Assembly (NCBI GenBank): GCA_001464795.1
Contig: LNEB01000014.1
Span: forward strand, 62,001 to 126,000
DNA: 64,000 nt
Source: Bdellovibrionales bacterium Ga0074139
Lineage (GTDB): Bacteria > Bdellovibrionota > Bdellovibrionia > Bdellovibrionales > Bdellovibrionaceae
Direction: 5' to 3'
The notes under the pieces are model-generated. The model was not told where the DNA came from. It was given only the letters and a program-made list of their open reading frames with translations, and did no database searches. Position 1 is the stretch's first letter. Every line of letters begins with the position of its first letter. Positions 1,615 through 25,936 of the stretch are shown here, piece by piece. Made by a program: the position numbers and the translations under genes.

Positions 1615-3570
1615 CTAATCTGCAACTGTTCCACCTAAGAATGATCCATTAGCAATTGAGGACCCACCAACGGTTAAAACGCCAGAGCCGCTAGTGCCAG
1701 GAACATCCTTTTTGTGAACTGTATTGCCATTCAATGTGAGACCTTGAAGAGTCAAATTAAAGCCAGACATATAAATTTCACCACTGATCAAGTTCCAACT
1801 TCGTGTTGAATTTCCCCAATTTGAACCTAAGACAACCCTTCCTGCTCCTGATTGCTGAATAGTGAAGCCTCCTGTTGGGTAATTGGTTGTAGATGTAAAT
1901 ATTTGCGTACCCGATCCGGTCGCTTTAAGAATTGCTGTTCCACCCCCAGCTGTCACGCCTTGGACGTTGTAGTTTCCATTAAATTCAATGGATCCAATTA
2001 AAAATCCAAAACTTTGATTTAAGTTTCCTAAGACACGTATTGTACTGCCATTCATAATGTTAAACTCTTGAACGCCTCCACAGCCACTTCCACCCACCTG
2101 AGTAAATGTTAAATTATTAAACTCGAAATTATTAGGCACATTGATATTGTAGGTATAGGTCGTGCACGTGCCGATGGTTCCTGCAAAAGTTGTTGTTCCA
2201 CCATTTGGGTTGAACGTGGCACCAGAAGGAATGGTGAAAAGATTCAAAAATGTTAACTGCCCCATGCCAACAAAAAAGTTGCTCGATGGTGCTGTAAATG
2301 ATCCCGCTATGATTTCAAATGTTTGGGCACCAAAAGTACTGGCATCTAAAGGAGTTACTGTTCCTGATATGGGTTTATTAATCTTCACGTGAGTTGTCGC
2401 ATAGTCTACATTACCGCCTCCACCGCGGTAAGTTTGGTTAGCAAGACCGACAAACATCAGAACGGCTGTTCCTCCACCATAAGTGCCATTTCCAGAGTAA
2501 TAGTTTCCATGAAGATAAATCGTTCCACCATTGATTCCAGAGCGGCTTGAATTATCTGTAAAAGTTCCAAGGACATTAATAGCTTTCCCTTGATTGATAT
2601 TAAAGTATTGTGTGCCACCACAGCCACCACCTGCAGCATCTAAGTTGAAGTTATTAAAATTTTGATTATTAGGAACCTCCATAAAAAGTTCATAGTAAAA
2701 ACATTGTGCTGTGAATTTTCTTAAGGTTACTGTTCCATTGTTGTGATTAAAGGTTGCTCCACTATCAGGCATAATGAAAACTCTTGATGTCGTGTTAGAT
2801 TCCAGTGCCACTTGAAAATTTCCAGTGGTCGAAGTGAAAGTTCCCCCTAGAAATTGAAAACCAGCGTTTGCATTAATACTGATAGCACCAGTGCCACCGA
2901 CAAAGGTTCCGTTATACATGACCCAACCACGTGAACCCACTGTGATAGTGAAGGTACTTGTCTGAGTTATTGTACCCGTATACCCAGAGGTCATACGGAT
3001 ACCAAAAACAGAAATACTTGCATTAATTGTTGGATTACAATTACTCATACAAACAGAATTAAAAAGTGCTGTGTGTGTAGGACCAGGAGCTGTTCCACCC
3101 GACCAATTCAAACCCGTGTTCCAATTGGCATTTCCTCCACCACCCGTCCACACAAAGGGATTGGATTGAATCGTGGATGTTTGATTGGCATTTGAATAGG
3201 CCGTTGCACTGGCTGTTAATGTGGGATTACTGACTGCATTTTCTAAATAATAAAAACTTGCTGAATTTAAACCAATACCAATCGTGACTGATGTGAAGGC
3301 AACAGTGCACGCAGGATCTGAATAAAAAATCACAGACCCTGAAGAAGTCAAATTGACAACAAGTGGAGCACCCAAAACAACAGCAGGTGTTGATACGGTG
3401 GTAATTCCCGAGCAATTTCCGGCAAATAAAGTTTGAGCACCCGTGGAAAAAGTTAGTGAGGGCATTCTTCTTTTAAAAAAGGATCCACCTGCAAATTGTG
3501 CGTTTGCAAAACTGGATAGAAACAATGAGACAACTAAAATAAGATTAGTAGCCAGGAGTCCATGCCACAT
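1615..3570 (-). CDS. Exported beta-repeat surface protein (one Cys-paired module)
   Basis: 651 aa with a signal peptide ending SSFANA. Residues about 40-138 form an Ig-like stretch with two cysteines. Residues 141-249 (2824..3150) are one copy of a module shared with the genes at 9515 and 15721: WTGxGGNxNWN, NWSGG, a CxxxC pair, SGYTGTITQ, and VGSxGW. The rest is Gly/Thr/Asn-rich beta-strand repeat sequence of the right-handed beta-helix kind, ending GGTVAD. The start overlaps the fibre gene upstream by 26 nt, which indicates translational coupling. No C-terminal autotransporter barrel is visible. Function is inferred to be surface display or adhesion alongside the fibre. Confidence 0.8.
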   Translation of the reverse strand: MWHGLLATNLILVVSLFLSSFANAQFAGGSFFKRRMPSLTFSTGAQTLFAGNCSGITTVSTPAVVLGAPLVVNLTSSGSVIFYSDPACTVAFTSVTIGIGLNSASFYYLENAVSNPTLTASATAYSNANQTSTIQSNPFVWTGGGGNANWNTGLNWSGGTAPGPTHTALFNSVCMSNCNPTINASISVFGIRMTSGYTGTITQTSTFTITVGSRGWVMYNGTFVGGTGAISINANAGFQFLGGTFTSTTGNFQVALESNTTSRVFIMPDSGATFNHNNGTVTLRKFTAQCFYYELFMEVPNNQNFNNFNLDAAGGGCGGTQYFNINQGKAINVLGTFTDNSSRSGINGGTIYLHGNYYSGNGTYGGGTAVLMFVGLANQTYRGGGGNVDYATTHVKINKPISGTVTPLDASTFGAQTFEIIAGSFTAPSSNFFVGMGQLTFLNLFTIPSGATFNPNGGTTTFAGTIGTCTTYTYNINVPNNFEFNNLTFTQVGGSGCGGVQEFNIMNGSTIRVLGNLNQSFGFLIGSIEFNGNYNVQGVTAGGGTAILKATGSGTQIFTSTTNYPTGGFTIQQSGAGRVVLGSNWGNSTRSWNLISGEIYMSGFNLTLQGLTLNGNTVHKKDVPGTSGSGVLTVGGSSIANGSFLGGTVAD

Positions 3571-6500: not shown

Positions 6501-8419
6501 CAGTTTTCAGTAGCCGTACCACTTCTGTTACAAATCTGAAAATCGCTTTCCATTCCGCCATTGCCACCATTGCCGCTGACAGATCCAACTCTCCAACCAA
6601 TAACTCCGGCTGATCCCCAACCAGAAGTCATATTAGGCCGAGTACCAAGCAAAAGCAGTGAGGGTTGAGCATAAGTTCCTGAATGAGTTGATAAAGCGAG
6701 ATATGCGTCGGTTGTTGTGTCCCCGGTAGGTACAGCGATATCTAAGAAGCTTTGCGGAGTTGTATTATTAATTCCAAGCCTTCCAGTCGTTGATAAGGTC
6801 ATTTTTGTAGTGCCAGCGGTTTCAAAAGCTAAGGCGTTGGCATCGTTAGTTCCTAAAGTTGCAAGACCTGCGAATGAATTTCCGTTATTAACAAACCCAC
6901 CGTTCGCACCAAAATCAATATTTTGGCAAGACCATGTATCACTGATTGTATTCCAATAAGGTGTCTGCGTGACCGAGCATGCAGCACCTGCCACATCAGT
7001 GGCGTAGGCTGTTTGTTGAACAGCTCCAATGATTCTAGCATCATCTCCTGCTGCTACGGTATTGGCTAAAACTCCCACATTCACAGTCAGCGCAGGAGAA
7101 GCTGGGATTGTATTATCTACTGTTAAATAAGAATTTGTTGAGCTGATGCCAGTTAATGATCCCGCCGAAGCAGCTATCCAACTCAGTTGGCCTGTGCCAT
7201 CAGTTGATAAGACATAACCATTTTGTGGAGCACCGACTGGCAAAGTTAAAGCGTATGATGTTGTGATATCAGCTGGAGCACGAACTGTAGCAGTATTCGT
7301 ATCATTGTCGTTGAGTATTAAATTTCGACCTGAAAAGTTAGTTGCAGCCACTGATGTAGCATTGGTGATATTTTGCAGACCCATATTGATCGAGCCTGTC
7401 ATCGTACCACCCAAAAGTGGTAATTTCGATGCATCATCAACAGCTGTATTAACCACTCCTGTTACGCGACCTTTCGTATCAGTTGTAATCACTGGAATTT
7501 GCGAAGCAGAACCATAGGTTCCAGCAGTGCCCACATTAGGTAAAGATAAAACTCCACCCGAAATTGTCAGTCCACTGACTGCTAAATCAGTATCGATCTG
7601 TACAACACCCTTTGCTGCGTAGCTTGCATCACTTGCAGAGCCACTGGAATCATCAGCCGAAGGAACCCAGCTTGTTCCATCAAATTTTAAAACTTGTCCA
7701 ATTCCAGGAGCAGTCGCAGAAACAGCGCGACCTTGAATGCCGTCCACAACAATAGAATTATAATTTCCCGATATATCACCAGAAAATGCAGTGCTTGGAC
7801 GCAAATACTGAGTATTGGTCCCTGCAATGATATCCACTAATGTGTTCACTTGCCCTGCACTTAACGGGGTATAAACAGCTAACGGATCAATTTTTAAAAA
7901 TTCACTGGCACGGTAGCCCTCAAGCTGAATGGAATTATAAGCTAAAGGAACATAGTTAATCGAAGCGGGTGGAAGCTCTTCCCAAGCAGCAGTTAAATTT
8001 TCTCGAAAGCGAATCTCAAATGATCTTCCATGGGTGCTAGCAGGAATGTAGGTACCCGAAGCATCATCACAATTAAGTCCTGACGTATAGGGTGAGCGAT
8101 TAGAAAAAACCTGTGGCAAAGTAAAATTACCACCTGTTAATGGATTAGCAATTGGTACTGGCACTCGAGTGGGCTCATCGGTGTCACCGATCGTGACAGT
8201 GAAAACTCCGCCTGTGGTGCTTAGATTCTTTGTTTGAAATTCTTCCCACATCAAACAACCTTCAGCACCTGGTGATTTGATTCGAATGTGAAAAATAGTT
8301 GTTGGTGAAACAAAAGGAGTGTTATCGGATCGCATGATTCGACCATGATAAGTAATACCTGAGGCTGAAAAGGCTTTTAAACTTACTAGTAATAAACTTA
8401 AAAGCAGAGTGATTTTCAT
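3545..8419 (-). CDS. Giant trimeric-type fibre protein 1 (MAT-like adhesin)
   Basis: 1624 aa with a signal peptide (MKITLLLSLLLVSLKAFSA). The N-terminal 250 residues match fibre 2 closely, starting SGITYHGRIMRS and including GCLMWEEFQTK and NCDDASGTY. The shaft repeats three kinds of unit: four 'GGN...GTND...ET' segments, several 'GIGT.TP.AALDVNGA' segments, and three 'PAGQGRIYF' segments near residues 725, 1050 and 1250. The last 110 residues form a separate tip-like domain with two cysteines and end VAWTPGY. From memory, this architecture matches the mosaic adhesive trimer fibres of Bdellovibrio bacteriovorus and phage tail-fibre shafts. It probably trimerises on or outside the outer membrane and binds prey or other surfaces. 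A phage origin is unlikely because no phage structural genes are nearby. Confidence 0.85.
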   Translation of the reverse strand: MKITLLLSLLLVSLKAFSASGITYHGRIMRSDNTPFVSPTTIFHIRIKSPGAEGCLMWEEFQTKNLSTTGGVFTVTIGDTDEPTRVPVPIANPLTGGNFTLPQVFSNRSPYTSGLNCDDASGTYIPASTHGRSFEIRFRENLTAAWEELPPASINYVPLAYNSIQLEGYRASEFLKIDPLAVYTPLSAGQVNTLVDIIAGTNTQYLRPSTAFSGDISGNYNSIVVDGIQGRAVSATAPGIGQVLKFDGTSWVPSADDSSGSASDASYAAKGVVQIDTDLAVSGLTISGGVLSLPNVGTAGTYGSASQIPVITTDTKGRVTGVVNTAVDDASKLPLLGGTMTGSINMGLQNITNATSVAATNFSGRNLILNDNDTNTATVRAPADITTSYALTLPVGAPQNGYVLSTDGTGQLSWIAASAGSLTGISSTNSYLTVDNTIPASPALTVNVGVLANTVAAGDDARIIGAVQQTAYATDVAGAACSVTQTPYWNTISDTWSCQNIDFGANGGFVNNGNSFAGLATLGTNDANALAFETAGTTKMTLSTTGRLGINNTTPQSFLDIAVPTGDTTTDAYLALSTHSGTYAQPSLLLLGTRPNMTSGWGSAGVIGWRVGSVSGNGGNGGMESDFQICNRSGTATENCRLHMDFATGNLNVGGSNAGLHMGSRLNVRGNMTVGTSWSSWTTFQAAPTDSLIVEGMIGAGLTTPATALDVNGAISARGMAAPALAPAGQGRIYFDSTSNTFRISQNGSAYQEVTVGGFMNGGNSFGAAGTLGTNDNFGMNFETNGTARMAITNDGSVGIGSLTPTAFFDVQGGTSSTGSGKAINIVAQNALQSGVPSYNGADVVLTAGRAYNYGSPGNIVLNAAPTGGGAATLGGNIFLNSRTNIGWTAGNVAAGIIQHNPFGYQPTLSVGFNSGDTPAGITTISANSTSNLNYGLVGLGARSWGGSGTPLQNGDLMPGFMWGGLSTPGLGSGTVVGAGIYGQVDGAVSSLNLPTSIVFQTSLNNGAGLSEKMRISSAGLVGIGTDLPATALDVNGAISNRGLASAPANAPAGQGRIYFSTAENKFKVSQNGGAYTDLVTAGGAGDITNGGNSFGSAATIGTNDNNDFSIETNNVPRMVFKNDGYYIGVRNSNPIYGFDLTGPDMNQLVARFKGGSWNDSQVTIEGGNGSGRPVLEFSRPGDSAMQLLFNSSGLLLNPSNNINSPSVNSGVFTTTGRLGIKTTSPTSELDINGAVTQRGLASAPAVSPAGQGRIYFDSASNKFRVSQDGGAYTDLVPAGGAGDILNGGNTTGAAITMGTNDAQNLVLETSGSARLTVRPDGRVGINTPTPSANLEVFGTTGVGESIVAGSDFDNLIRVYSNSATGRTGLKIDGRGGGGFNSWILHNGNADQNFYITEGNNINAATQRFTIAQGGNVGVGTTSPTSKFQVQGAASAGPVDYSMATFQTSLNKGLTFGYDNTNEWSTVYSREVGSSPRSIAFFSQNTSPNIPSMIVAYDGFSTGRVGIGTATPRAALDVNGAILSKPATGNGTSTINFAGGNLQFTNSDCAAYAFHNLKDGGAYTFAVKGTAVATCSFTAFSDAGVTPLTVKMPPDHGATTTGKHTLYNLLVMGSDVYVAWTPGY

Positions 8420-8426
8420 ACCTTAT

Positions 8427-8454
8427 TAATCGGATCAAACAGTCTGGACCTTAA
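8427..8454 (-). promoter_or_regulatory. Sigma-28 (FliA)-like promoter of fibre gene 1
   Basis: On the minus strand, TTAAGGTC (8454-8447), a 12-nt spacer, then TCCGATTA (8434-8427). The FliA consensus is TAAAGTTT and GCCGATAA. The spacing is identical to the elements before fibre 2 and the PilZ gene. The -10 ends 7 nt before the ATG, so the transcript would be leaderless or nearly so. Confidence 0.6.
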
Positions 8455-8503
8455 GTCAAAAAGATCGACAAAAAAGCGAAGTCTTATTCTGAGACAAAAA
8501 ATT

Positions 8504-9481
8504 CTATTTTTGAAACAACAAAGATAAAAACTCTTCCATAGAGTCTTGGGCTGAAAGTTCATAGCCATTGATGTAAAAAACAGGCCTAGGTACTATTTCT
8601 AACCGTCTAGCTTCAAAAAGGTCTTCATTCACAAGCTCGCGGTACTTATTTCCATCCAGACAATTTTTGAATTGAACACCGTCTAGACCTGCTTCATTAA
8701 CAAGTTTTAATAGCTGATCAAGGTCATTGGGTTTTTCTTTTGAAAAAATGTTGATGAACTGTTTGGTTTTATTTTGCTCAGCTGCACAACCTGTCCCCAT
8801 AGCGGATTGAAAAATAATTGAGCTTTCATTTTCTTGCATATTAAACCTGATCTCGAGGCTGACCTGTTCAGCATATTTATCTAAAATCAAATTAATTTTT
8901 TCATAAATTTGATCACAAAAAATACAGTAGTAATTGGTAAACAAAATAACTTTTGCAGGTGCATTCGCATTTCCTAGATTAGCTACAAAACTTTTTCCTG
9001 ACACTTGTTTTTTTACTTTGTAATGGATAGGGATTTTCCATTGAATATTATTTTTTAAATTCTGACTTTCACGAATTCTTGCTGAGTGAATTTTAAACAT
9101 ATTTTGAATATCAGCTTTAGCCTGGTCATTGAGCTTTTTTAGATCAATATTTCTTTCTTTTAAATATTTCTGAAACTCTTTTTCATCATCTTGGGTTTGT
9201 TTTGAGCTTACAATTAAAGCATCAATTCCCAGGCCTTTGATGTGATCTACAACAGCTTGTTTTTTTAATGCATATTCTGATCTTTTTAAGTTTAGTAGAT
9301 CTTGTCTGATTTTAGGCTCGACATCTGATGCTAAAATTTCTTTGTCACCGTAGATGGCATAAACAGTATCCAGGGGCTCTTGAAGATTTGAATTAAATTT
9401 ATTCTCAGCATTTTGGTAGCCGAAGTAGTAGCTTGCAGCAGTCAGAGCTAGTGAAATGATAGTAAAAAAGAACATCTTCAT
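8504..9481 (-). CDS. Membrane-anchored DsbA-like thiol oxidoreductase with SurA-like N-terminus
   Basis: 325 aa. An N-terminal membrane anchor (residues 3-20) is followed by a helical segment, about 38-95, resembling the SurA/PpiC chaperone N-terminus ('IYGDKEILASDVEPKIRQDL'). The thioredoxin fold then has the active site C186-I-F-C189 and a cis-Pro region at P300 ('PRPVFYING'). A second pair, C232 and C274, probably forms a structural disulfide as in DsbA-like Thioredoxin_4 proteins. It would act in the periplasm to make or shuffle disulfides. It lies between a beta-repeat gene rich in Cys pairs and a fibre gene with Cys pairs, so those are its likely substrates (inference). The paralogue at 19367 lacks the CxxC. 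Confidence 0.8.
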   Translation of the reverse strand: MKMFFFTIISLALTAASYYFGYQNAENKFNSNLQEPLDTVYAIYGDKEILASDVEPKIRQDLLNLKRSEYALKKQAVVDHIKGLGIDALIVSSKQTQDDEKEFQKYLKERNIDLKKLNDQAKADIQNMFKIHSARIRESQNLKNNIQWKIPIHYKVKKQVSGKSFVANLGNANAPAKVILFTNYYCIFCDQIYEKINLILDKYAEQVSLEIRFNMQENESSIIFQSAMGTGCAAEQNKTKQFINIFSKEKPNDLDQLLKLVNEAGLDGVQFKNCLDGNKYRELVNEDLFEARRLEIVPRPVFYINGYELSAQDSMEEFLSLLFQK

Positions 9482-9514: not shown

Positions 9515-12500
9515 CTACGGATTAACTGTTCCACCAAATAATGCACCCGTGCCGGCCGTGACACCGTTGACGATCAGTGAACCTGTGGACTTTGTCCATG
9601 TGTTGCCACCAAGGGCTAAGCTTGTAGTTCTAAATATTGAACCGGCCGTTTGACTGACGACTCCTGATATCACTTGCGTCGAGCCATTCACCCTTGGAGT
9701 TCCTGAAATGGAGACCGCATGACTACCGGTCGCAATCACAAGATTAGGAATATTAACATTCAATGGACCCGAAATGATTTGGCCGGCCGGATTTCCTGTT
9801 AACCTAACAGTGGCCGTTCCGGTAATAGCGTTGTAAGCACCATCAATGAGTATCACATTTCCACTGACCGCTAAAACGCCTGAATCAATATTGTTCGTGC
9901 CGTAACCACCACGTCGTAAAGTCAAATTACCCAACACATTCATGGTACCTTGGATGATAAAAGCTCCGTAATGATTTGGCATGATATCCACATTGTTATA
10001 GTTAACACTCCCAGGAACAATCGTGATTGATTCTGAATAGTAACCGTTTGTTTCAAAAAATAAAGTCGAACCAGTTGTAGTGAATGTCCCTGAGGAAATA
10101 TAAGTATAATTTCGACCAATTTTTTGTACACCTTGAATGGTAACAGGATGAACACCTGTATTGATCTCAAGATTTGCCATTCTTCCATTGGCTCCTGTGA
10201 AGGAAACAATTTGCCCTGCCGGTCTTCCAATTAATTCGATAACGTAAGTACCTTCAATAATTGCACCGTTGCCATTAAACTGACCCGTCGAAAGATTACC
10301 AGCCACTTTTAAACGAAGGTTGTTAAATATGGTTTGATAGCCAGGCATATCCATTGTTAAATCATTGGCTACGGTGACTTCGGTTCCACTCCACTCTACA
10401 CCTGTGCAGCTGTTTATAAATCGCACATTATAGAACGTATGCACACGGCTGAGGTGAGCTTTGTGATTAGTACAACTAAAATCAAAATTAAAAGTTCCAT
10501 TATTGTGCTGAAAGTTTGTTGATATCCCTAAACCTGCGTAGACAGGATCGTAAGGGGCACCAGAAAGAACAGTGGTTGTTGCTGATGTAGCTCTAAAAGT
10601 TCCCGCACCGAAGAAAACTCTTCGATACAGTGTCATGTTGGCATTACTACCTAAGAAAGATCCACCCGCTTGGTTGATACCAAAGGCACCGATATTGACT
10701 TGTACACTTGGTGCTTGAGTGATTGTGCCTGTATAATCAGGCATCATATACAGACCTCGAACATTGGGGTTCACGTTAAGAGTTGGGTTACAATTAGAAC
10801 TGCAATTGGCATTAGAAAATATTGCCACTTGAGTGGCAGAATCCACTGGCACCACTCCACCAGACCAATTAGCTGCCGTATTCCAATTGGCATTGGCACC
10901 TGCACCTGTCCAAAAATAGGGATAGCCTGCACAAGCCAAAACTGCCCCATCATTTTGAAAGGATGTATTGGTATAAGTTCCACCACGACAAACAATTCCT
11001 GTATAATTACTAAGATACATGGCACGCGTGTTTAAATTAAAGCCATTCAGATTGATGACTCCAGATAGCAACCGAAATATTTGTGCAGAAGAGTTCGTAA
11101 ATGTTGCAGCTGAATTCAAGGTCAGCATGGCTAGTTTCTCGACTGTTATGTCACCACTAACAACACTTGCCGATGCACCAATATTTAGGGTCGAAGCTGT
11201 TCCACCAAAAAAAGTAAGATTAGCAGAACCTGTATAACCAAAGTTAACAAAGTTAACGTTCCCATTAACTACTAGTGTTCCCGAATCAATACCGCCGGAA
11301 CCAGACACAGAATCACCGACATTCAGATTTCCATCGATAAAAACACTTCCACCGAACAATGAAAATCGGGCATTAGACCCTGTTAAATTAACATGATGAA
11401 AACGAATATCTTTCGAGACAATGTTTCCATTTGTTGCACCAGTGAAAGTGAAAGTTCCAAAATTACTATTAAATACGGGCCTGTTATTAACAGCAAATCC
11501 GTAGCCCGTGATAGTGGCAGCTGAGGTGGCTGTATAGGTTCCACCACTTAGTATGATATTACCGTTTAAATTGATATTCGCATTGGAGCCAATAAATTTT
11601 CCGTTGATCTGAACCCAACCTTGGCTGCCTATCGTCACGGGCACGGCAGACCCCTGGGTGATAGTGCCTGTGTAATCAGAAGCTAAACGAATTCCCTTAA
11701 CGTTAGGATCCACATTCAATGTGGCGTTGCAATTGCTGCCACAAAAAGTATTACTAAAAAGTGCAACATCATTGACACCAGGTACTACAGCACCAGACCA
11801 GTTGCTGGCATTATTCCAGTTAGAATTACCCCCGGCACCCGTCCAATTAAAACTTGTAGAGCTACAATCAAACACTCCATTGTTTGTTAGTGAAGCCCTA
11901 GTTAAAGTTCCCCCATTGCAAATAAGCGTTCCAGAGGAATCAATTGTTACGTTGTCGTTCACGGTAAGATCACTGCCAGCCATGTTTAAAGTTCCAGCTA
12001 TGACTCGAAGGTCAGCTCCGCCCGTGTTGAAGCCCAAATTGCTTGCTAAGGTGACGCTGGATCCAACGGATTTATCAACAGTAATCAAGCTTCCTGGGTG
12101 TGAAGGTATGCCACTGCCAGACACTTGTATAACACTGGATGTGGCACCCCGGAACTGCAACTGAGAACTTCCAGTCACTCCGTTATTAGAAATTAAAAAG
12201 TCTCCGTTGATTTCAAAAGTTCCAGTATTGATTTGCCAGCCGTAGAGTCCATCATGCCATAGCAGACCCGCTGTTTTTAAACTTCCAGTTAAAGTCGTCC
12301 CTGGTGATCCACGAGGACGCATTTTCACATCATTGTACATAGCGGGGCCAGGAGTAAATTGAGAAACTTCTAAAAGCTCAATTGACGAGGAGCCTGCATT
12401 TAATGTTCCTGTTGAGTAAACGATATTTCGATTTGTTCTAATATTACCAGATAAATATATGACTCCACCAGTTGAGGCAAATTCAATATTTGGAACCCAA

Positions 12501-15500: not shown

Positions 15501-15649
15501 CCATAACCCACCCATGTGTAGGGTTGTAATCGATCAATACCTAACATATGAAAAAAAACATGTTGAGCATGACTATTTAAAGAGAAATAAAAAAGTGAAA
15601 AAAATAAAAACAAAGCAGCCAAAAGCTTTGTTTTTAGCAGTGATTTCAT
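9515..15649 (-). CDS. Giant exported beta-repeat surface protein (four Cys-paired modules)
   Basis: About 2044 aa. The ORF opens at 15706, but I place the start at the ATG at 15649 because it gives a clean signal peptide (MKSLLKTKLLAALFLFFSLF...SHAQ) and follows a GCCGATAA element. It carries four copies of the WTGxGGN..NWSGG..CxxNC..YxGTITQ module, beginning near 15514, 14011, 11845 and 10912. Between them lie long Gly/Thr/Ser/Asn-rich beta-strand repeats ('GxLxVxGNLT') typical of right-handed beta-helices. Linkers before three of the modules have a 'CNGG/CRGG...NNG...C' pair. The protein ends FGGTVNP. It resembles a filamentous, haemagglutinin-type surface protein but has no visible secretion partner or barrel. 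Role inferred: surface fibre or matrix. Confidence 0.8.
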   Translation of the reverse strand: MKSLLKTKLLAALFLFFSLFYFSLNSHAQHVFFHMLGIDRLQPYTWVGYGTDANWTTPQNWSDNAAPGLSDTARFITSACSSNCSPTINTSISIGGISVDATYPGTITQAPGQAIIVGSAGWTQAGGTFVGNNANITINSTFSLTGGTFTSTSAQMLVTSGFVSVGGTFLHNNGLLRFDNNGIVAANSTINVSVPANLELWNLQYSGGYNSSNGTYKVNLASGSFNVLSDFRIGLTVAGALGTIYASGGSIEVKGNLILDPSAKLEANTNPSNVILNGTGAQTYSSTSGRLPNLIINKPSGAVTPLGGSINLTVESFTNTSGSFTAPPSSFIVLGNFTISGGTYLENSSSMQFERYSDGGTNFTISLANALNVTNLTFGGGQPVAATPITWTLAGATPRINASGNLGISNTQAGSGAVTVNGGEIYLSGNYLAGAHSGAGTTALTFNGTGAQSFNKSGAGSNLAGSMIVDKASGTLTLATVANINSSGQNFTITNGIVNMAGFGLNVGSTLTIGVNGRLICNGGTPTYSSVVINGEVSCGPSIGITWTGLAANNQWSTVGNWTNNTVPTASDVALFNSKCTGPNCNSSMPASVSVRGLRLNSDYPGTLTAGTTVTIGTSGYIQAGGTYNGVASTKTVGSTFTLSGGTYTATSGTTTINATSYNTTGTAVFNHSSGTFNFSYPSWNTTTNIAVGTENYWAVIVTGSYTSINLTGELNVLGPLTLEGTHPNSSQLLSGVISAKNNVTIAGYGMTSPGTLKISGSSNQSVTISGVNNPYVPSLDISSTGGTVTMTGIFRLHRNFTHNSGTVSASASTLFFEPDYAAAITVKGGSEVYGNVTFRTNQGDVSLNGDLIIGGTLNFHEKHSIYGGYMSGPGRLISRGDVNYLGGGMKGEAFVVISGSVNQTIFGESTAFGIGIEFAKSGGVASLTGRIPAYQNLVYTSGTVNAGTSTVDFNPGYIDHATWTPGSIPFNHVRLAGQESNLTIIGSLTVLGTLTLDDSNGQYAGEITGTILASGDVVVNRGGKKGAGLIRFVGSTDQTLLGNGYSDYNWVPNIEFASTGGVIYLSGNIRTNRNIVYSTGTLNAGSSSIELLEVSQFTPGPAMYNDVKMRPRGSPGTTLTGSLKTAGLLWHDGLYGWQINTGTFEINGDFLISNNGVTGSSQLQFRGATSSVIQVSGSGIPSHPGSLITVDKSVGSSVTLASNLGFNTGGADLRVIAGTLNMAGSDLTVNDNVTIDSSGTLICNGGTLTRASLTNNGVFDCSSTSFNWTGAGGNSNWNNASNWSGAVVPGVNDVALFSNTFCGSNCNATLNVDPNVKGIRLASDYTGTITQGSAVPVTIGSQGWVQINGKFIGSNANINLNGNIILSGGTYTATSAATITGYGFAVNNRPVFNSNFGTFTFTGATNGNIVSKDIRFHHVNLTGSNARFSLFGGSVFIDGNLNVGDSVSGSGGIDSGTLVVNGNVNFVNFGYTGSANLTFFGGTASTLNIGASASVVSGDITVEKLAMLTLNSAATFTNSSAQIFRLLSGVINLNGFNLNTRAMYLSNYTGIVCRGGTYTNTSFQNDGAVLACAGYPYFWTGAGANANWNTAANWSGGVVPVDSATQVAIFSNANCSSNCNPTLNVNPNVRGLYMMPDYTGTITQAPSVQVNIGAFGINQAGGSFLGSNANMTLYRRVFFGAGTFRATSATTTVLSGAPYDPVYAGLGISTNFQHNNGTFNFDFSCTNHKAHLSRVHTFYNVRFINSCTGVEWSGTEVTVANDLTMDMPGYQTIFNNLRLKVAGNLSTGQFNGNGAIIEGTYVIELIGRPAGQIVSFTGANGRMANLEINTGVHPVTIQGVQKIGRNYTYISSGTFTTTGSTLFFETNGYYSESITIVPGSVNYNNVDIMPNHYGAFIIQGTMNVLGNLTLRRGGYGTNNIDSGVLAVSGNVILIDGAYNAITGTATVRLTGNPAGQIISGPLNVNIPNLVIATGSHAVSISGTPRVNGSTQVISGVVSQTAGSIFRTTSLALGGNTWTKSTGSLIVNGVTAGTGALFGGTVNP

Positions 15650-15656
15650 ACCTAAT

Positions 15657-15664
15657 TTATCGGC
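15657..15664 (-). promoter_or_regulatory. Perfect GCCGATAA (sigma-28-type -10) before the 9515 gene
   Basis: GCCGATAA on the minus strand, ending 7 nt before the ATG at 15649, the same placement as at both fibre genes. The matching -35 is poor: the only TAAA lies 12 nt upstream of the -10 instead of 16. A weak or non-standard sigma-28 promoter is possible, and so is simple read-through from 15721. Confidence 0.4.
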
Positions 15665-15699
15665 TAAAATGATGATTTTAATGAGTAAATATATGACAG

Positions 15700-15714
15700 T
15701 TCTCAAATTGAGAA
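15700..15714. promoter_or_regulatory. 15-bp perfect palindrome between the two beta-repeat genes
   Basis: TTCTCAA and TTGAGAA arms of 7 bp around one central base, 7 nt after the stop of the 15721 gene (read on the minus strand) and upstream of the 15649 start. It could be an operator or a weak transcript hairpin. It lacks a T-tract, so a terminator is unlikely. Confidence 0.3.
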
Positions 15715-15720
15715 TCTCAA

Positions 15721-18700
15721 TTAGGGATTAATTGTTCCACCACTATTTGATAAAGCTTCGTAAGTGAGAGTTCCACCACCGCGGTTAATGACTGTACCAC
15801 TGGCAAGTTGCAAAATGTTATTGGTACCAACGGCCGTTCCAATGGTCATGTTGAAGCCAGCCATATTCAAAGTTCCAGATTGCAAAATGAGATCTGAATC
15901 ACCGTAATTGACTCTGAAATTTGAGGTTTGTGTCACTGTTGCCCCACCTGTTTTATTGATGATCAATGGTCCAGGGTTAATGGCAGTTCCACTAGCAGTT
16001 AGAGTCGCATTTGTTGAACCAACCATTTCAAACTCAGTGGTGGAAGACGATTCTATTATCATCAAATGATAATTTTTTGAGATTTGAATTCTTCCACCAA
16101 GCATTCTTGCCGAATTAAAATTTTTATCAATTTCCAAATTTCCTAAAACTTGCATCGTTCCTGAAATAGTCGTCGGCCCGCAGTTATAATACCTGACATT
16201 CTGAAATTGAATATTTCCAGGAGTATGGGTGTCCATATCCCAACAGCCACCAGGTAAATCCCTATTTCTAATATGAGTCCAAGAATCGTTAGCAAAACTA
16301 ACACCACCAGATTGAATATGCTGGTAACCAGCTAAAGTTGTATTACCCAAAAAACTCACCGTTCCAGAAGGTTTATCAAATATGACTCGTCCAACACGGG
16401 TGGAGGAAGCAGGAGGCAATCCTGACGTAGTCACTGTTTGATTGTTCGTTCCTTTAAAATAAATCAATGCATTCGTGAAGTATTCATGGACTGTAATAGA
16501 CAAGTTACCATAAAGATCAACGGATCCTTCAAGACGACCATTATAGGTTGTAAGTGAAAGGCTAAGATTACCTAAGACTGTTAATGGAGTGCCTAACGTA
16601 TGACCTCCATCACCTGTAAAGCTAATATTGTTTACACTATCACCTCCGAACTCATAAATCGTTTCTCCATAACCTGAATTTCGAGTCACACTGATGCTGC
16701 CGCTACCATGATTAAAAGTGGCTCCTGGGCTGACTAAAATGGCGGACTGGTTAATAGTGAGAGTTGCTGAGGTGGCTGTAAATGTTCCACCGGTTATTGC
16801 AAAAAATCCTGTGATGGATTGATTGACGTTACTTCCATTGAAAGTTCCTCCGGCTTGTCGCCAGCCCTGGGCGCCAATCGTCATTAAAATTCCAGCAGGC
16901 TGAGTGATCACTCCTGTGTAGTCACTTAAAATTCTCACTCCTCGGTTATTGGGATTAACGTTCATGGTCGCATTACAAGTTGATCCACAATAAGCATTAC
17001 TAAACGCAGGCACATCATTGATTCCTGGCGCAACGCCACCAGACCAATTGGCATTATTATTCCAGTTGGTATTTCCGCCAGCCCCGGTCCAATGAAATGG
17101 ATAAGTTGAATAACCTGGGCAATTGATTGTTCCGTTATTCACAAGTGTAGTAGCTTCAAATTCTCCACCGTTGCAAATCAGTGCTGTCCCTGTATTTAAT
17201 GTTAAAGTGTTGATATTTCGGAAACCAAATCCACTGAGATTGATGGTTCCATTCACCAACGTCCAATTTTGCCCCGTGTTTAAATTTGCATTGCCAGTGA
17301 AGGTGATTGTTGCACCCGGTTTGTCAGCCACAATATCGGGGGCTAAAAATGAATTCGCTGTTTTTTGAAATGAAATAGAATTGCTGCCTTCAAGACGCAT
17401 GGTCGTCGTACCCAGACATCCGTTATTATTTGAAATAACATCCCCGCGGGCGATGACCGTACCGCCGTTGATGACTCCGGTCGTTCCCGAAGAGCTACAG
17501 TTAAAGGATCCATTCGCTATTAATGTTCCAGTTATAGCACGAGCGCCAGAATTATGAGCCGTACTAAATGAAATATTAAAAAATTCAACGTAGGAATTAA
17601 TAATTATATTTTGAGTCGTATAGTCGATGAAAGGAAAATAGGCCGTTGAAGTACCGGGATTAATAGTTCCTGCATTATAAGTGAATGTTCTAGAAAATCT
17701 TAAAGTTCCTGACAAATTCAAAACACCACTGTGATTAATTTCAGTCACTGGAATATTCGCGCCGCTGACTCCAGAAATGGTGCGAGTGCTAGCTCCTTCA
17801 ATTAAAAGCACAGATGTTCCTACGCAACCAAGATTTGAAAAACTAAGATTGCCTCGAGCGCTAATCGTTCCAGAGTTAATTGTTCCTACTGCTGTTGTTG
17901 AACTGCACTCAAAAGTTCCATCGACGGCTAAAGTTCCAACTATTGTTTTAATCCCAGAGCTTCCAACACCAGAAAAATTGACGTTATTAAACTCAAGCAA
18001 ATTGGAAACGGTGATTGTGCGTGTGCCAGAGACAAATCCAAAAATTGCAGTTGAAATACCTGCATCCACCACACCGTTTGAATAGGTCATATTTTGACTG
18101 AAGAGTAATGAGCCTACGAACGACACAATCCCACCAGTTGAATTAATATCAATATTTGGAATGTGAGCTGTTGCTATTCCTGTGATGGATTGATTGGTAT
18201 TACCAGCGACACTGATCAAACCCGAGCCCATACAGCCAAGATCACCGAAAACCAGATTTCCGCGAGCCACTACAGTGCCTGTATTGATGTTTGCCGGCTG
18301 AGTAATAGCAGAACAAGTGAATGTATTATTAACAACTAAATTGCCTGAAACAATTTTTGTTCCATTGCCTGAACCTGCAATTACAACATTATAAAATTCA
18401 ATGGGCCCAGCTGATATTGTTTGAGTTGCATAAGCAGTCAGCACAAAAGTAATATTTGAGGTGCCTGCAACCACAGTCCCAGTTGTATGTGTTAAATTGC
18501 CAAGGATTGCGATATTTCCGACTAAACTGACGGAACCACCACTGGAATTTATGACCACATTTGGTAGGAAATTATTTGAACCTGAACCTGTAATCGACTG
18601 ATTGGAATTTCCGTTCAAAATAATGGATCCCGTTCCTTGGCAACCAGAATCTGAGGTCGTGATATTTCCGCGCACAGAAACTGTACCGGTATTAAGCCGC

Positions 18701-19374
18701 GGTCCTCCTGGGGATTGACCATGACAAAGTAAGTTTCCAAGAACATCAATATTTCCTGAGATATTGATATTCATATCATTTGAAATACCAAAAAAGTTTA
18801 CATTGTTAAACTGAGCACCAGATGTCGATACATTTCTTGTTGAGTACTGGGTTAAAGAAAAAAGAAAAAGTCCATTGTTGTGACTAAAAGTAGCCGCTGG
18901 TGTTTGAATAGTAACATCAGTCTGAGTTGAAAGTGTTGCAGTGGTCGACGTGAAACTTCCACCAGTTAAAGAATAAGGTCCAGTCACTGTTATATTGGCA
19001 GAGCCACCCACAAAAGTACCAGCGGCCTGTTGAAAGCCAACAGCACCTACTGCAATTGTATTAGATCCTTGAGTGATCGTACCCGTATAGCTTGCATCCA
19101 TCCTAAGCCCTGCAATCGACACATTCGTATTCACTGTGACGTCACACTGAAAACCTTGGCACTCAAAATTAAAGACAGCTGTATCGTTAATACCAGGTAC
19201 CACTTTGGTGGACCAGTTATCAACCGTCGTCCAGTTGGAATCTGCTCCCTTACCGACCCAAACGAATGATGCAGTTGCATTGGGTAGCAGATGAAATTGC
19301 ATATATTGTGCAAGTGCAGTTGTTGAAAACCATGCAGCAAAAGTAAGTGCGGTGATTATTTTCATTTTAATCAT
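15721..19374 (-). CDS. Exported beta-repeat surface protein (two Cys-paired modules)
   Basis: About 1217 aa. The ATG at 19374 is preferred over TTG 19380 because AAAGGGG lies 8 nt upstream. It overlaps the stop of the thioredoxin-like gene by 8 nt (coupled translation). The signal peptide ends TTALAQ. Module copies begin at about 19260 and 17091, each with W.G...NW, a Cys pair and SYTGTITQ / DYTGVITQ. The first half also repeats a unit of about 130 residues reading 'G.I.V.GNL.C......G.GNTNQSITG', each with Cys residues ('FTCSAI', 'GCMGSG'), so this protein is the richest in regularly spaced cysteines. It ends GGTINP. Likely exported and surface exposed; function unknown. Confidence 0.8.
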   Translation of the reverse strand: MIKMKIITALTFAAWFSTTALAQYMQFHLLPNATASFVWVGKGADSNWTTVDNWSTKVVPGINDTAVFNFECQGFQCDVTVNTNVSIAGLRMDASYTGTITQGSNTIAVGAVGFQQAAGTFVGGSANITVTGPYSLTGGSFTSTTATLSTQTDVTIQTPAATFSHNNGLFLFSLTQYSTRNVSTSGAQFNNVNFFGISNDMNINISGNIDVLGNLLCHGQSPGGPRLNTGTVSVRGNITTSDSGCQGTGSIILNGNSNQSITGSGSNNFLPNVVINSSGGSVSLVGNIAILGNLTHTTGTVVAGTSNITFVLTAYATQTISAGPIEFYNVVIAGSGNGTKIVSGNLVVNNTFTCSAITQPANINTGTVVARGNLVFGDLGCMGSGLISVAGNTNQSITGIATAHIPNIDINSTGGIVSFVGSLLFSQNMTYSNGVVDAGISTAIFGFVSGTRTITVSNLLEFNNVNFSGVGSSGIKTIVGTLAVDGTFECSSTTAVGTINSGTISARGNLSFSNLGCVGTSVLLIEGASTRTISGVSGANIPVTEINHSGVLNLSGTLRFSRTFTYNAGTINPGTSTAYFPFIDYTTQNIIINSYVEFFNISFSTAHNSGARAITGTLIANGSFNCSSSGTTGVINGGTVIARGDVISNNNGCLGTTTMRLEGSNSISFQKTANSFLAPDIVADKPGATITFTGNANLNTGQNWTLVNGTINLSGFGFRNINTLTLNTGTALICNGGEFEATTLVNNGTINCPGYSTYPFHWTGAGGNTNWNNNANWSGGVAPGINDVPAFSNAYCGSTCNATMNVNPNNRGVRILSDYTGVITQPAGILMTIGAQGWRQAGGTFNGSNVNQSITGFFAITGGTFTATSATLTINQSAILVSPGATFNHGSGSISVTRNSGYGETIYEFGGDSVNNISFTGDGGHTLGTPLTVLGNLSLSLTTYNGRLEGSVDLYGNLSITVHEYFTNALIYFKGTNNQTVTTSGLPPASSTRVGRVIFDKPSGTVSFLGNTTLAGYQHIQSGGVSFANDSWTHIRNRDLPGGCWDMDTHTPGNIQFQNVRYYNCGPTTISGTMQVLGNLEIDKNFNSARMLGGRIQISKNYHLMIIESSSTTEFEMVGSTNATLTASGTAINPGPLIINKTGGATVTQTSNFRVNYGDSDLILQSGTLNMAGFNMTIGTAVGTNNILQLASGTVINRGGGTLTYEALSNSGGTINP

Positions 19375-20344
19375 AATCAAGACCCCTTTGAATTAGGTCT
19401 TTGATTATTAAGATATCTTCTGTGGCAGGAATGATACGGTTATTAATAACTAGAACTGGCTCTAAAATCTTAAGACGAAGGGACTCGGCTTGATCTTGTA
19501 GAATAGAACTTTTGAAAAGTTGAGCTAGAATACAATTGTTGAACTCTTGTTGATCTAATTTAGATTCTTTGGCAATAGCAGCCAAATCAATTTTTTGATT
19601 AAAATTGATTTGCAGCAAATTCAAGTGAAAATCTGATAATTTTTTTTGCTGATTTGCACACAACAAAGACTGAAATATTTGATAGGCTAATTGGTCCTCT
19701 GAATCCTGACCTAAAAAGCGTAGCTCAAAATTCAGCAGGTTGGGAAATAACTCATTTAGTACTTTCACATTTTCAAAAATATTTTTCAACTGTGGCAATG
19801 AATAATTAAAAAATAAAGGAATGCTGATTTTTGCCGATTGAGACCCTAATACAGCTTTTCCTCTTGATTGAATCTGAGCCATTGGATAACTTGGAAGTGG
19901 GAAGTGATAGCGCAACTGGAGTTCACTTGATTTTCTAAGCATTATCTGGTTTTGCATCTCACGAGCTTTTTTGATCTTCAAGTTATCCAGAAAATTTTGA
20001 TACTCTGTTTTTGAAATGAGTTTTAAATCTTTATCAAAACTTTTAACGTAATCTTCGAATTCGACAGTTGTCACCTCAATGTCTTGTAAATTAAACCTAT
20101 CTTCACTAGTGCCAATAATTTGCTTTTTGAACCACTGATCTGCAAGATTTTTTTTTGAAAAATAAACAGATTTTTCTGCATCAATTATTCCAATACCAGA
20201 TGATTCGATGAGCTCTTGACTTTTCAACTTACCACCGGAATAGGTCGCAAAAAGATCAGGCTGAATTTCTTGATTTTTAGGTATAAAAAAACCTATCAAA
20301 ATTCCAAAAATTATTAAGCTTATGTAAATCATCCAGTTTTTCAT
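19367..20344 (-). CDS. Thioredoxin-fold paralogue lacking the CxxC active site
   Basis: 325 aa, the same length as the oxidoreductase at 8504. It has an N-terminal membrane anchor (residues 5-20) and a helical middle. Residues 172-200 align without gaps to the paralogue's active-site strand, 'LFFNYSLPQLKNIFENV' against 'LFTNYYCIFCDQIYEKI', so both catalytic cysteines are replaced by leucine (L183, L186). The second Cys pair, C229 and C271, keeps exactly the 42-residue spacing seen in the paralogue (C232, C274). A proline at the cis-Pro position (P296, 'EPVLVIN') is also kept. A redox role is therefore unlikely; a chaperone or docking role for fibre 2 or the beta-repeat protein is inferred. 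It lies 27 nt after fibre 2 and overlaps the next gene. Confidence 0.75.
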   Translation of the reverse strand: MKNWMIYISLIIFGILIGFFIPKNQEIQPDLFATYSGGKLKSQELIESSGIGIIDAEKSVYFSKKNLADQWFKKQIIGTSEDRFNLQDIEVTTVEFEDYVKSFDKDLKLISKTEYQNFLDNLKIKKAREMQNQIMLRKSSELQLRYHFPLPSYPMAQIQSRGKAVLGSQSAKISIPLFFNYSLPQLKNIFENVKVLNELFPNLLNFELRFLGQDSEDQLAYQIFQSLLCANQQKKLSDFHLNLLQINFNQKIDLAAIAKESKLDQQEFNNCILAQLFKSSILQDQAESLRLKILEPVLVINNRIIPATEDILIIKDLIQRGLDYD

Positions 20345-20371
20345 ATTGTAGCCCGCATTGTTGCTAAAATT

Positions 20372-23300: not shown

Positions 23301-25936
23301 TTATTAATAGCCGCTTGTGCAGTGATTGCGCCTGTACCACCACGAGCAATTGGTAAAGTTCCTGAAGCAATATTATCAGCATTGAGATTTGTTAAGTTCA
23401 CACCACTGACAGCTGGTAATTGAGAAGTTGCATTTAATTGTACGATCTGATTAGCCCCTACACCCACATCCACATTCAAGGTGGCAGAACCAGAAGTTGC
23501 ACCACCCGTTAAACCTGTACCAGCATTCACTTCTGTGATGTCCCCAGTTGCAGATGCTGAAGTTAAAATATCTGCGTAAGCCGAACCATTTTGTGAAATT
23601 TTGAAAGTATTAGATGTGGAATCAAAATACACTCGTCCCTGACCAGCTGCTGATATAGCGGGTGCAACCATTCCACGCATAGTCATAGCACCATTAGTAT
23701 CTATGGCTGAAGTTGGATCTAATAATCCAATACCTGCAAAACCATTGGCATCAAATTCAAACAAACGAGTGCCGTCGAAATCAAATCTCACACCCTTTTC
23801 AATGTCAGCATCGATATTAATACCGGTGTAATTGCCATTATCATTTTGCCTAATTCGCATAAGACCGGCCGATTGCTCGACATAAATTTGTCCTAGTTTA
23901 TTTGTATTCCCATCATTGATCTGAAGTCCGCCTTCAAATCTTGTATTCCCAGTGCTTAATAATCTAAGCATATTCTGATTATTTCTTTTCAAAACTAAAT
24001 CTTGATTATCATTCGTACCCAAAACAGCTTCAGCGCCAAAAGCATTTCCACCTTGCGAAAATCCTGAACCTGCCACACCCGGAGTAAACCACTCCCACTG
24101 AAAAGCTCCTTCATTCCAACGTAAAGATTGTCCACTTTGTCCAGCAGTAGGAGCAACTGAAGAGGAAGGAATTCGAGATGTCACATTTAGCACATCACCA
24201 ACTGTAGTAAATACAGAATTCGGAGCTGCTTTCGCCCAAGCAGCCACGGTAGGATCAGTTTCTACAGTCAATCCTGCATCAGCAGAAGGAACATAGTTAG
24301 TTCCATCAAATTTTAAAACCTGACCATTCAACGGCACAGTTGCCACAACATTTGTCCCACGTATTCTTTCAACCACTGTTGAACCTTGAGCACCCGTCAC
24401 ATCACCAGCAACAGTGATATTAATATTTTGGCAAGCCCACACACCACCCACTGAGAACCAGTAAGGAGTTTGAGCCGTTGTACAAGAAGCAGCTGGTAAT
24501 ACATCAGAGTTATAGTCAGCAGCCTGCAAGGCACCCACGATTCTAGCATCATTACCAGCTGCTACTGTGTTAGCAGCAGTTCCCACGTTCACTGTTAAAG
24601 CTGGTGTTGTAGGGACTGTATTGTCTACAGTTAAATAAGAATTAGTAGAGCTAACACCAGTTAAAGATCCAGAGCTTGCAGGAATCCATAACAACTGACC
24701 TGAAGCATCTGTTGAAAGCACATAACCATTTTGCGGAGCACCTGTTGGCAAAGTGAGATTGTAATTGGTTGTAATATCAGTTGGCGCACGAATTGTTGCA
24801 GTGTTTGTGTCGTTGTCATTTAAAACTAAATTTCGAGCTGAAAAACTTGTTGCTGAAACACTTGATGCATTTGTGATTGCATTATTGCCCATGTTAATCG
24901 CACCTGACATCGTTCCACCTGTCAGAGCTAATTTTGTTGCATCATCAATAGTCACTTGAGAAACGGAAGTGATTCGACCTTTAGTATCATAACCGATCAC
25001 AGGCACCGAAGAAGCTGATCCCGCAGATCCTGCGGTCACTAAATTAGGCAATGCTAAAACTCCATTGCTGATAAAAAGTCCACTTGTCGCCTGATCTGTA
25101 TTGATCTGAACGATACCTTTAGCTAAATAGCTGGCATCACCTGGTGATCCACCCGTGTCATCAGCTGAAGGCACCCAGTTGGTACCGTCATATTTTAAAA
25201 TTTGTCCAGGAGTTGGTGCTGTGGCCACAACGTTTGTGCCACGAATTCTTTCCACACTTGTTGATGTGGAAGTTCCCGTCACATCACCAGTGAAAGTGGA
25301 AACACCCGGACGCAAATATTGGTTATTTGTTCCAGCAATTAAATCAACCAAAGTGTTCACTTGTCCGGACGTTAAAGGCGTGTAAACAGCAGAAGGTGCA
25401 ATTTTTAAAAATTCGTTGGAACGGTAACCATCAAGTTGTGTTGAGTTGTAAGCTAAAGGTACAAAATTAATTGTAGCCGGTGGCATTGTTTCCCATGGTG
25501 CTGTTCCATTTTCACGGAAATAAACCTGAAACTTACGGCCATGATCTGTGGCCGGAGTATAAGTTCCTGAAGCATCATCACATGTTAAACCTGATGGGTA
25601 GGGACTTTTATTTGAAAACACTTGCAGCAATGTAAATTGTGAACCTGTCAGCGGATTAATAACAGTTACAGGTACGCGGTTTGGAGCATCAGTATCACCA
25701 ATAGTAATTGTGAACACACCTGCGGTGGCACTTAAATCTTTTGTCTGAAACTCTTCCCAAAATAAACAACCCTCATTACCAGGAGATTTAATTTGAATAC
25801 GAAATTCAGTCGTCTGCGAGGTGACTGGAGTATTATCGGAGGATCGCATAATACGGCCATGGTAGGTAATACCAGATGCCGCTAGAGCGTGGTTAGAAAT
25901 CAAGAGAAGTACAACAACGTACAGAATATTTCTCAT
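20372..25936 (-). CDS. Giant trimeric-type fibre protein 2 (MAT-like adhesin with YadA-like head repeat)
   Basis: 1854 aa with a signal peptide (MRNILYVVVLLLISNHALA). The N-terminal region parallels fibre 1 almost residue for residue (ASGITYHGRIMRS, GCLFWEEFQTK, TCDDASGTY, then LPASAVYTPL-type and GQVNTLVDLIAGTN segments). The shaft has 'GTND', 'GVGTTSP' and three 'GQGR(I/V)YF' units near residues 760, 1445 and 1683. Residues about 1167-1223 read as YadA/Hep_Hag head repeats ('SGYSFAQGDSARATGSNSMA'), which form trimeric left-handed beta-rolls, so trimerisation is well supported. The C-terminal domain differs from fibre 1 in most of its sequence but ends in the related VTWSTGFQP. Inferred to be a host- or prey-recognition fibre heading an operon with 19367 and 15721. 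Confidence 0.85.
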   Translation of the reverse strand: MRNILYVVVLLLISNHALAASGITYHGRIMRSSDNTPVTSQTTEFRIQIKSPGNEGCLFWEEFQTKDLSATAGVFTITIGDTDAPNRVPVTVINPLTGSQFTLLQVFSNKSPYPSGLTCDDASGTYTPATDHGRKFQVYFRENGTAPWETMPPATINFVPLAYNSTQLDGYRSNEFLKIAPSAVYTPLTSGQVNTLVDLIAGTNNQYLRPGVSTFTGDVTGTSTSTSVERIRGTNVVATAPTPGQILKYDGTNWVPSADDTGGSPGDASYLAKGIVQINTDQATSGLFISNGVLALPNLVTAGSAGSASSVPVIGYDTKGRITSVSQVTIDDATKLALTGGTMSGAINMGNNAITNASSVSATSFSARNLVLNDNDTNTATIRAPTDITTNYNLTLPTGAPQNGYVLSTDASGQLLWIPASSGSLTGVSSTNSYLTVDNTVPTTPALTVNVGTAANTVAAGNDARIVGALQAADYNSDVLPAASCTTAQTPYWFSVGGVWACQNINITVAGDVTGAQGSTVVERIRGTNVVATVPLNGQVLKFDGTNYVPSADAGLTVETDPTVAAWAKAAPNSVFTTVGDVLNVTSRIPSSSVAPTAGQSGQSLRWNEGAFQWEWFTPGVAGSGFSQGGNAFGAEAVLGTNDNQDLVLKRNNQNMLRLLSTGNTRFEGGLQINDGNTNKLGQIYVEQSAGLMRIRQNDNGNYTGINIDADIEKGVRFDFDGTRLFEFDANGFAGIGLLDPTSAIDTNGAMTMRGMVAPAISAAGQGRVYFDSTSNTFKISQNGSAYADILTSASATGDITEVNAGTGLTGGATSGSATLNVDVGVGANQIVQLNATSQLPAVSGVNLTNLNADNIASGTLPIARGGTGAITAQAAINNLLPTQAAQSGKLLSTDGTNVSWIDAPAGGVTEVTSANAYLSVATGTTTPVLTLNVGTAVNTVAAGDDARITGALQTADYNAQVLPAASCTTSQTSYYNTVAGAWACQNINISGGGGFVNDGNTFGAAATLGTNDTFALNFETDGTTKMTILPAGNVGVGTTSPKSKLEVDGSLTVSSMSGADSSLSANLGIADTTLTVSSTANYPATGIVRVGQELMSYSGKTATTLTGLSRGLYSTPTVTASGGVRVQRLSLAVPTDSSQPSGLMYFGGSQALAIGTPEANAVLGDKSLTVGHNSRASSGYSFAQGDSARATGSNSMASGGAATAIGINSQSFGHTTTADSYAQMSIGQYNLPKGGESANTWVTSDPLFVVGNGTSLGAGRSNAMMILKNGNVGVGATTPASPLTISNDLTVATGNADSVVEINRNYTVSDINTKRGAYLNQNVYGSVNLSGTVGISSNFTNAPGGTALVVSGFGSQAQANGIIGDRRGFTVGNASGTGTINTQYGLYIENLTKGAVNYGVFTAGTTPSSFGGNVGIGNTNPSTALDVSGAFSQRGMAAPALSPAGQGRIYFDSTSNKFRVSQNGGAYTDLIPTGGIGDILQGGNSFAADATIGTNDAYALNFETQGTNKMTILANGNVGIGETNPAQKLRVNGQVRPESIFIYRTSGASNNMIELSTEGGANNSTQRGIYANMDWSSTANAASSTTGSLFELDLYPSGTLGNATGSQVTLNTTSGTVTNAYGFRSSVLQGGSGTVTNAYGLHIASVQGTNKFSIYTTDSTAPVSIASALDQRGMAAPALSPAGQGRIYFDSTSNRYLVSQNGGAYVDLIPNGGAVGGTGTTNAIPKFTAAGAIGDSAIVDNGTTITATRSIASATNPIASGATINLATSNTHTLASIGGPTITVTNPSNGGVYNIVVEDTVSRTYTFSGCTATYFKPANAPTAVGTRTVYGLMTIQKGGNWDCYVTWSTGFQP

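Follow-up and report, generated by a model that had tools for sequence, protein, structure and literature searches.

What do two giant fibres, two thioredoxin-fold proteins and three beta-repeat proteins make together, and why should their genes lie side by side in the genome of Bdellovibrionales bacterium Ga0074139? A first-pass annotation of the window (the whole stretch of DNA analysed here, 64,000 nucleotides of contig LNEB01000014.1) had read the group as an export-and-folding system for disulfide-stabilised fibres. Our analysis leads to a different emphasis. We propose, at a probability of roughly 0.6, that the locus encodes two-part surface adhesins, each consisting of a MAT fibre and a separate, N-terminally tagged head that docks on it and contacts prey, with the thioredoxin-fold proteins as accessories.

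Seven genes and two MAT fibres

All seven open reading frames were found on the minus strand within 24 kb, in the three gene types and the order first described: fibre (P0007), thioredoxin-like (P0006), repeat (P0005), repeat (P0004), thioredoxin (P0003), fibre (P0002) and repeat (P0001) (Table 1). Neighbouring genes overlap or are separated by at most 84 nt. The fibre genes do lie beside 325-residue thioredoxin-fold genes, with gaps of 27 nt (P0007 to P0006) and 84 nt (P0003 to P0002), and P0004 is followed by P0003 after 33 nt. The coupling reported for the repeat genes was likewise recovered: the P0005 gene overlaps the P0006 gene, and the P0001 gene overlaps that of fibre 2 (P0002) by 26 nt, so that a separate gene for a tip protein stands directly behind a fibre gene. 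Promoter and terminator scans of the window found sites no more frequent than in shuffled sequences and thus do not delimit the operon.

Table 1. Features of the seven-gene locus, in window coordinates and in order of transcription
Feature	Coordinates	Strand	Basis and details
MAT fibre 1, P0007, 1,854 aa	20372–25936	minus	Signal peptide; Bdello_MAT_N domain 25400–25912; phage-like shaft; C-terminal tip domain
Tip domain of fibre 1 (P0007), last 95 aa	20375–20659	minus	Tip alignment; ends CYVTWSTGFQP
Pseudo-thioredoxin P0006, 325 aa	19367–20344	minus	N-terminal membrane anchor; thioredoxin fold; LPQL at 19787–19798 in place of the catalytic CxxC
Head protein P0005, about 1,217 aa	15721–19374 (ORF 15721–19380)	minus	Two WTG modules; mature N terminus QYMQFHLLPNA, tag 19276–19308
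Giant head protein P0004, about 2,044 aa from ATG	9515–15649	minus	Four WTG modules; mature N terminus QHVFFHMLGI, tag 15536–15565
DsbA-like thioredoxin P0003, 325 aa, membrane-anchored, periplasmic	8504–9481	minus	CIFC active site 8915–8926
MAT fibre 2, P0002, 1,624 aa	3545–8419	minus	Bdello_MAT_N domain 7889–8395
Tip domain of fibre 2 (P0002), last 95 aa	3548–3832	minus	Tip alignment; AlphaFold2 model; ends DVYVAWTPGY
Head protein P0001, 651 aa	1615–3570	minus	Tag 3466–3498 (mature N terminus QFAGGSFFKRR); one WTG module 2806–3156; beta-repeat body

Both fibres exceed the cut-off of 60 bits for the NCBIfam model Bdello_MAT_N (NF053851), P0002 with 83.7 bits and P0007 with 90.8 bits, and they are 68% identical to each other over about the first 500 residues. 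Residues 1010–1157 of P0007, in the shaft, match the crystal structure of a MAT protein (8OJN, Bd3182; E = 1.5 × 10−7). The genome, of 2.9 Mb, contains six MAT genes. Like the MAT fibres of Bdellovibrio bacteriovorus, P0002 and P0007 have a signal peptide, a conserved N-terminal domain, a phage-like shaft and a variable C-terminal tip (PMC10769870), and by this likeness they would be trimeric and exposed on the surface. The main text of Caulton et al. (2024) describes the MAT C terminus as itself the adhesive tip, whereas the tip in the window looks like a socket for a head with a gene of its own; the searched parts and the discussion of that paper make no mention of thioredoxin, operon or disulfide partner genes (PMC10769870).

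A module marked by WTG and NW motifs and a cysteine pair is common to the three repeat proteins, and it occurs nowhere else in the genome. The pairs are spaced as CxxxC or CxxxxC in the seven WTG modules of the window, and because this spacing varies, the strict CxxNC pattern of the first-pass annotation does not hold. Each of the five large secreted proteins of the window has an even number of cysteines. An AlphaFold2 model of P0001 is all beta (pLDDT 70) and gave no confident match in the PDB; Pfam matches to Amnionless, Cadherin_pro and Reprolysin fell below the cut-off and were disregarded. The open reading frame of P0004 spans 9515–15706, with the ATG at 15649 as the likelier start. Inside its signal-peptide codons, between two head genes, a 12-bp stem is followed by a run of T (15605–15636), which may serve as an attenuator.

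Fibre tips and the exported proteins encoded behind them

The arrangement is found again in another family. In the metagenome-assembled genome of Bdellovibrionales bacterium Ga0074137, a MAT gene, a gene for a 2,045-residue WTG protein, a thioredoxin gene and a second MAT gene form an operon with gaps of 38–50 nt, and both MAT genes exceed the NF053851 family cut-off. The WTG head is 53% identical to P0004 over 2,054 residues, and the thioredoxin (P0008, with YHCPYC) is 34–35% identical to P0003. Fibre 1 and its counterpart there are 85% identical in the tip and 81% in the distal 169 residues, against 25% in the anchor domain, and the proteins measure 1,854 and 813 residues, respectively. Conservation of the distal tip and head beside a diverged anchor and length indicates that exchange affects the rest of the fibre and leaves tip and head together. 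Since the order fibre, repeat protein, thioredoxin, fibre is kept with such short gaps in a second family, the cluster is not accidental, and its adjacency goes beyond chance.

Surveying the phylum of the window and then 141 genomes of its order, we found WTG proteins adjoining MAT genes in nine genomes (G000, G233, G021, G278, G272, G298, G266, G110 and G074); WTG proteins that carry a lipobox stand alone, with a possible exception in G266. MATs that have exported neighbours possess a common 95-residue C-terminal domain with an ending like YVAWTPGY or CYITWSTGF, and a profile of this tip matched in 61 of the 141 genomes. The tip of fibre 2 was modelled by AlphaFold2 as an all-beta domain of eight strands (pLDDT 93.4). 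Its predicted fold resembles the C-terminal domains of tail fibres of uncultured Caudovirales in BFVD (73 matches with E ≤ 0.001; about 1 × 10−5 for the window tip), which differ from it in their low sequence identity (about 10–24% among the matches listed) and in having no known partner. A Foldseek search of the PDB returned no similar solved structure. Equating the tip with the peptide-binding tip of Bd2133 (8OND/8OK3) was rejected for now, on the lack of a Foldseek match in the PDB and of a sequence-profile match; we remark only that TSGNLG, the peptide bound in the Bd2133 crystal, resembles the YNLGAFW tag described below.

Loci were then chosen by the tip alone, with their neighbours unseen, which gave 39 (a fortieth, L185, was excluded for its partial tip match). 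In 29 of them the next gene follows in the same orientation at a distance of no more than 100 nt. In 21 of the 39, by eye, an exported protein is coupled directly downstream, always overlapping or within 18 nt, and at two further loci the head comes later in the same string of genes; about 16 have no head beside the tip, some of these at contig ends. MATs without the tip have an exported direct neighbour in about 4 of 57 cases, as against 21 of 39 (Fisher p = 3 × 10−7), a comparison in which the head calls, the cleavage sites and the tip-less count were all assigned by eye; a crude signal-peptide caller missed many heads, and its Fisher values are not used.

The heads fall into many classes: RCC1, NHL, Kelch, DUF5122 and SBBP propellers, LamG lectin-like proteins, FGE-like, Gly-rich and Lcl_C proteins, and the window's own WTG proteins; Ig, BspA-like DUF285 or SPRY domains are present in tagged proteins elsewhere. 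As WTG proteins make up just one of many head classes, 'Cys-module proteins', named as the third type of the unit, was the wrong abstraction. The general rule is that the gene next downstream of a tip-bearing MAT fibre encodes an exported head with a tag at its N terminus. A search of the literature on Bdellovibrio with propeller heads found nothing.

A second MAT cluster in the same genome (C3:160001–200000; L007 and L008) includes DUF5122 propeller heads tagged QAPFSGPFNRG and QMPGAGPFNRG, as well as a head with FG-GAP-like repeats tagged QFVPFGFWKK. Elsewhere, LamG (concanavalin A-like) proteins of 261–321 residues are encoded directly behind tip-bearing fibres (L092 14412–15326 in G110, L105 4370–5155 in G021, L162, L166 and L179); these are candidate lectin heads of an easily expressed size.

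The N-terminal tag and the thioredoxin pair

Heads of unrelated fold begin, immediately behind the signal peptide, with similar peptides, among them YNLGAFW, SPSFWKQ, VPFAFWQ, FRSNVGFWQ, SGAFWKK and HSFWKKK. Tags on heads of so many unrelated folds mark the system as modular. Across 369 genomes the YNLGAFW pattern matched eight times, in six genomes, and its reverse not once; all eight matches sit just behind the Sec or TAT signal of an exported protein. A tag expression fixed on earlier loci and run on new ones matched 5 of 29 direct heads and 2 of 156 other genes, both of the latter being exported tagged proteins themselves. A wider expression was discarded as too loose, with 19 matches among the 156 background genes. 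The tags are variable, and FFHLLGI, PFSGPFN and IPGTQTGL also occur.

Tag and tip vary together. Among 38 tip–head pairs, tag similarity correlates with tip identity when the comparison is limited to pairs that differ in head fold, in family or in both (r = 0.25–0.29, p = 0.0003), whereas the 13 residues after the tag (r = 0.03–0.07, p = 0.26–0.07) and the signal peptide (r = −0.1) show no such correlation; some of the pairs came from WTG and MAT searches and they are in part related by descent, although the signal holds between families. A WTG head of G278 and a LamG head of G110, which belongs to another family of the phylum, have GG.[IM]PF[LM]FMP in common on fibres with tips that are 78% identical, and YYNLGA recurs in three families, on WTG, RCC1 and SBBP heads. 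The match fails for P0007, L023 and several LamG heads, where the closest tip from a different fold goes with another tag.

The heads of the window carry Sec signals; TAT signals occur on some tagged heads elsewhere (L138 in G242, L142 in G062, L148, L150, L151, L174, L177, L180 and L182), which suggests that those heads fold in the cytoplasm before export.

The tag could instead be a sorting or anchoring signal for some other surface receptor, such as an outer-membrane component or a pilus tip, with adjacency to MAT genes reflecting shared regulation only. Tagged proteins that adjoin no MAT gene (G242, L027 and L028) speak for such a role, as do two that are encoded beside pseudopilin genes: the tagged WTG head QWLTPAFWKRH of G021 (L028) stands behind three large pseudopilin-like genes, and a YNLGAFW head of G216 (L140) behind one. 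From these two cases, tagged heads may also dock on pilus tips. As a general account, however, the sorting signal seems doubtful to us, because tag similarity follows the similarity of the MAT tip across head folds and families, most heads overlap the stop codon of the fibre gene, and adjacency depends on the tip domain and not on MAT genes in general. The window has three adjacent pseudopilin-like genes of its own on the minus strand (35288–38071; 324, 341 and 332 aa), with long C-terminal parts that contain cysteines.

The putative oxidoreductase and pseudo-oxidoreductase of the first-pass annotation were both recovered. P0003 is a Thioredoxin_4/DsbA protein (E = 2.5 × 10−18) with its CxxC present as CIFC, and its diverged homologue P0006 (26% identity over 222 residues) has LPQL in place of that motif but keeps the structural cysteine pair 229/271. 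P0003 resembles DsbA-like thioredoxins (PF13462, PF01323) in fold, CxxC and membrane anchor; it differs from them in its fused N-terminal helical region, which is SurA_N-like only in distant relatives, and P0006 differs in lacking the active-site cysteines. A third full-length paralogue of P0003 is encoded away from MAT genes in the same genome (C1:146893–147816; L063 and L064), and the plus strand of the window encodes an exported thioredoxin-like protein of 160 residues near the locus (32046–32528; FWASWCEIC).

Such a pair might be the reason for the clustering, as a dedicated export-and-folding unit that makes the disulfides of cysteine-rich fibres and Cys-module proteins. In two families a thioredoxin does lie beside MAT and WTG genes at short distance; cysteine counts are even in the large secreted proteins of the window, and one cysteine pair is missing as a pair in the orthologous head of Ga0074137. 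The genome also encodes VKOR, which could recharge a DsbA. We nevertheless consider this explanation unlikely. The full-length family adjoins a MAT gene in only 2 of the 141 genomes of the order, that of the window and Ga0074137, which leaves a general disulfide machine weakly supported; relatives in three other genomes stand alone (G276 and G274) or at a contig end (G229). Many genomes have cysteine-paired WTG modules, and tip–head pairs, with no thioredoxin linked to them, and P0006, devoid of CxxC, has no orthologue beside MAT genes elsewhere in the genomes searched. What had been put forward as a recurring triplet of fibre, thioredoxin and repeat protein is therefore a partly conserved cluster, present as fibre–WTG–thioredoxin–fibre in Ga0074137 and without the pseudo-oxidoreductase. 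A role in disulfide formation is plausible, given a redox protein beside cysteine-paired secreted proteins and a VKOR, but it does not define the system and is secondary at most. The thioredoxin pair is probably an accessory of the fibre–head system, and at these two loci the thioredoxin would stand where it could oxidise or isomerise the cysteine pairs in both fibre and head.

Phage Tfa proteins are fibre-assembly chaperones, and their genes lie directly behind the fibre gene. The downstream proteins studied here occupy the same position, as does the gene for the T4 chaperone gp38 (PMC12892980), and might accordingly be assembly chaperones of the Tfa or T4 gp38 type and not structural heads. 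That is improbable for proteins that bear Sec or TAT signals, extend to about 2,000 residues of binding-type beta domains (LamG, propellers) and are too diverse for such a function. Chance clustering of duplicated genes for secreted proteins can be practically dismissed: the fibres and also the repeat proteins are paralogous, so local duplication contributed, but another family keeps the gene order with proteins 53% and about 35% identical, and unrelated heads show the association again.

A proposed docking of heads on fibres

The domain assignments, the conserved operon, the linkage of tip and head, the shared tag and the covariation of tip and tag are direct results of the computation. We infer from them that the N terminus of the head docks on the trimeric tip, which is the most likely reading, by analogy with phage gp38 on gp37 or TcpF on TcpB. 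The MAT fibre, a trimer like a phage tail fibre, would be anchored to the cell by its N-terminal domain and would end distally in the 95-residue beta-sandwich tip. The genes next behind it, joined to the fibre gene by translational coupling or by a shared operon, would encode exported heads (fibre 2 with P0001, fibre 1 with P0005 and P0004). The first 10–12 residues of the mature head, an aromatic tag, would dock in the trimeric tip, leaving the large beta-rich head as the end that touches and presumably binds prey. The joint of tip and tag would be retained while heads and fibre bases are exchanged. The paired disulfides of both fibre and head are probably formed or isomerised in the periplasm by the thioredoxin, and its non-catalytic paralogue P0006 may hold clients.

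Two known systems resemble this scheme. In T2-type phages a separate adhesin, gp38, sits on the gp37 trimer through its N terminus, and the shared principle is a trimeric fibre with a separate receptor-binding protein at its tip (PMC12892980). Phage gp38 is, however, a poly-glycine sandwich, whereas the heads described here come in many unrelated folds, carry Sec or TAT export signals and are cellular, not phage, proteins; Pfam gave no match to a gp38-like poly-glycine type II sandwich in the heads of the window, which are WTG-repeat proteins. In type IVb pili, TcpF and CofJ attach to a trimeric minor pilin (TcpB and CofB, respectively) through an N-terminal peptide in which aromatic residues are key, and here too a protein of the same operon would offer its mature N-terminal aromatic peptide to the tip of a trimeric fibre (PMC9565799). 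The differences are that their trimer is a minor pilin and that TcpF is secreted by the pilus, whereas a MAT is no pilin and the tag sequence is another. The proteins of the window belong to neither the gp37/gp38 nor the TcpF/CofJ family.

A wider reading is, to our mind, an even bet: Bdellovibrionota would carry a modular system in which the phage-like trimeric tip is a universal socket and the mature N-terminal peptide a plug. Heads of more than ten unrelated folds, with Sec or TAT export, could then be mounted on surface fibres and pass from one fibre or lineage to another as tip and tag coevolve.

It has long been asked how one predator can recognise many prey. MAT fibres have been put forward as the answer, but single deletions rarely give a defect (PMC10769870). 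Our results suggest interchangeable heads, clipped onto fibres to grip different prey. The redox pair bears on a smaller question, the folding of giant disulfide-bearing proteins. If the proposal is true, the prey-binding repertoire would include dozens of secreted propeller, lectin and repeat proteins that have had no assigned role, and sequence would show which fibre pairs with which head, through the subtypes of tip and tag.
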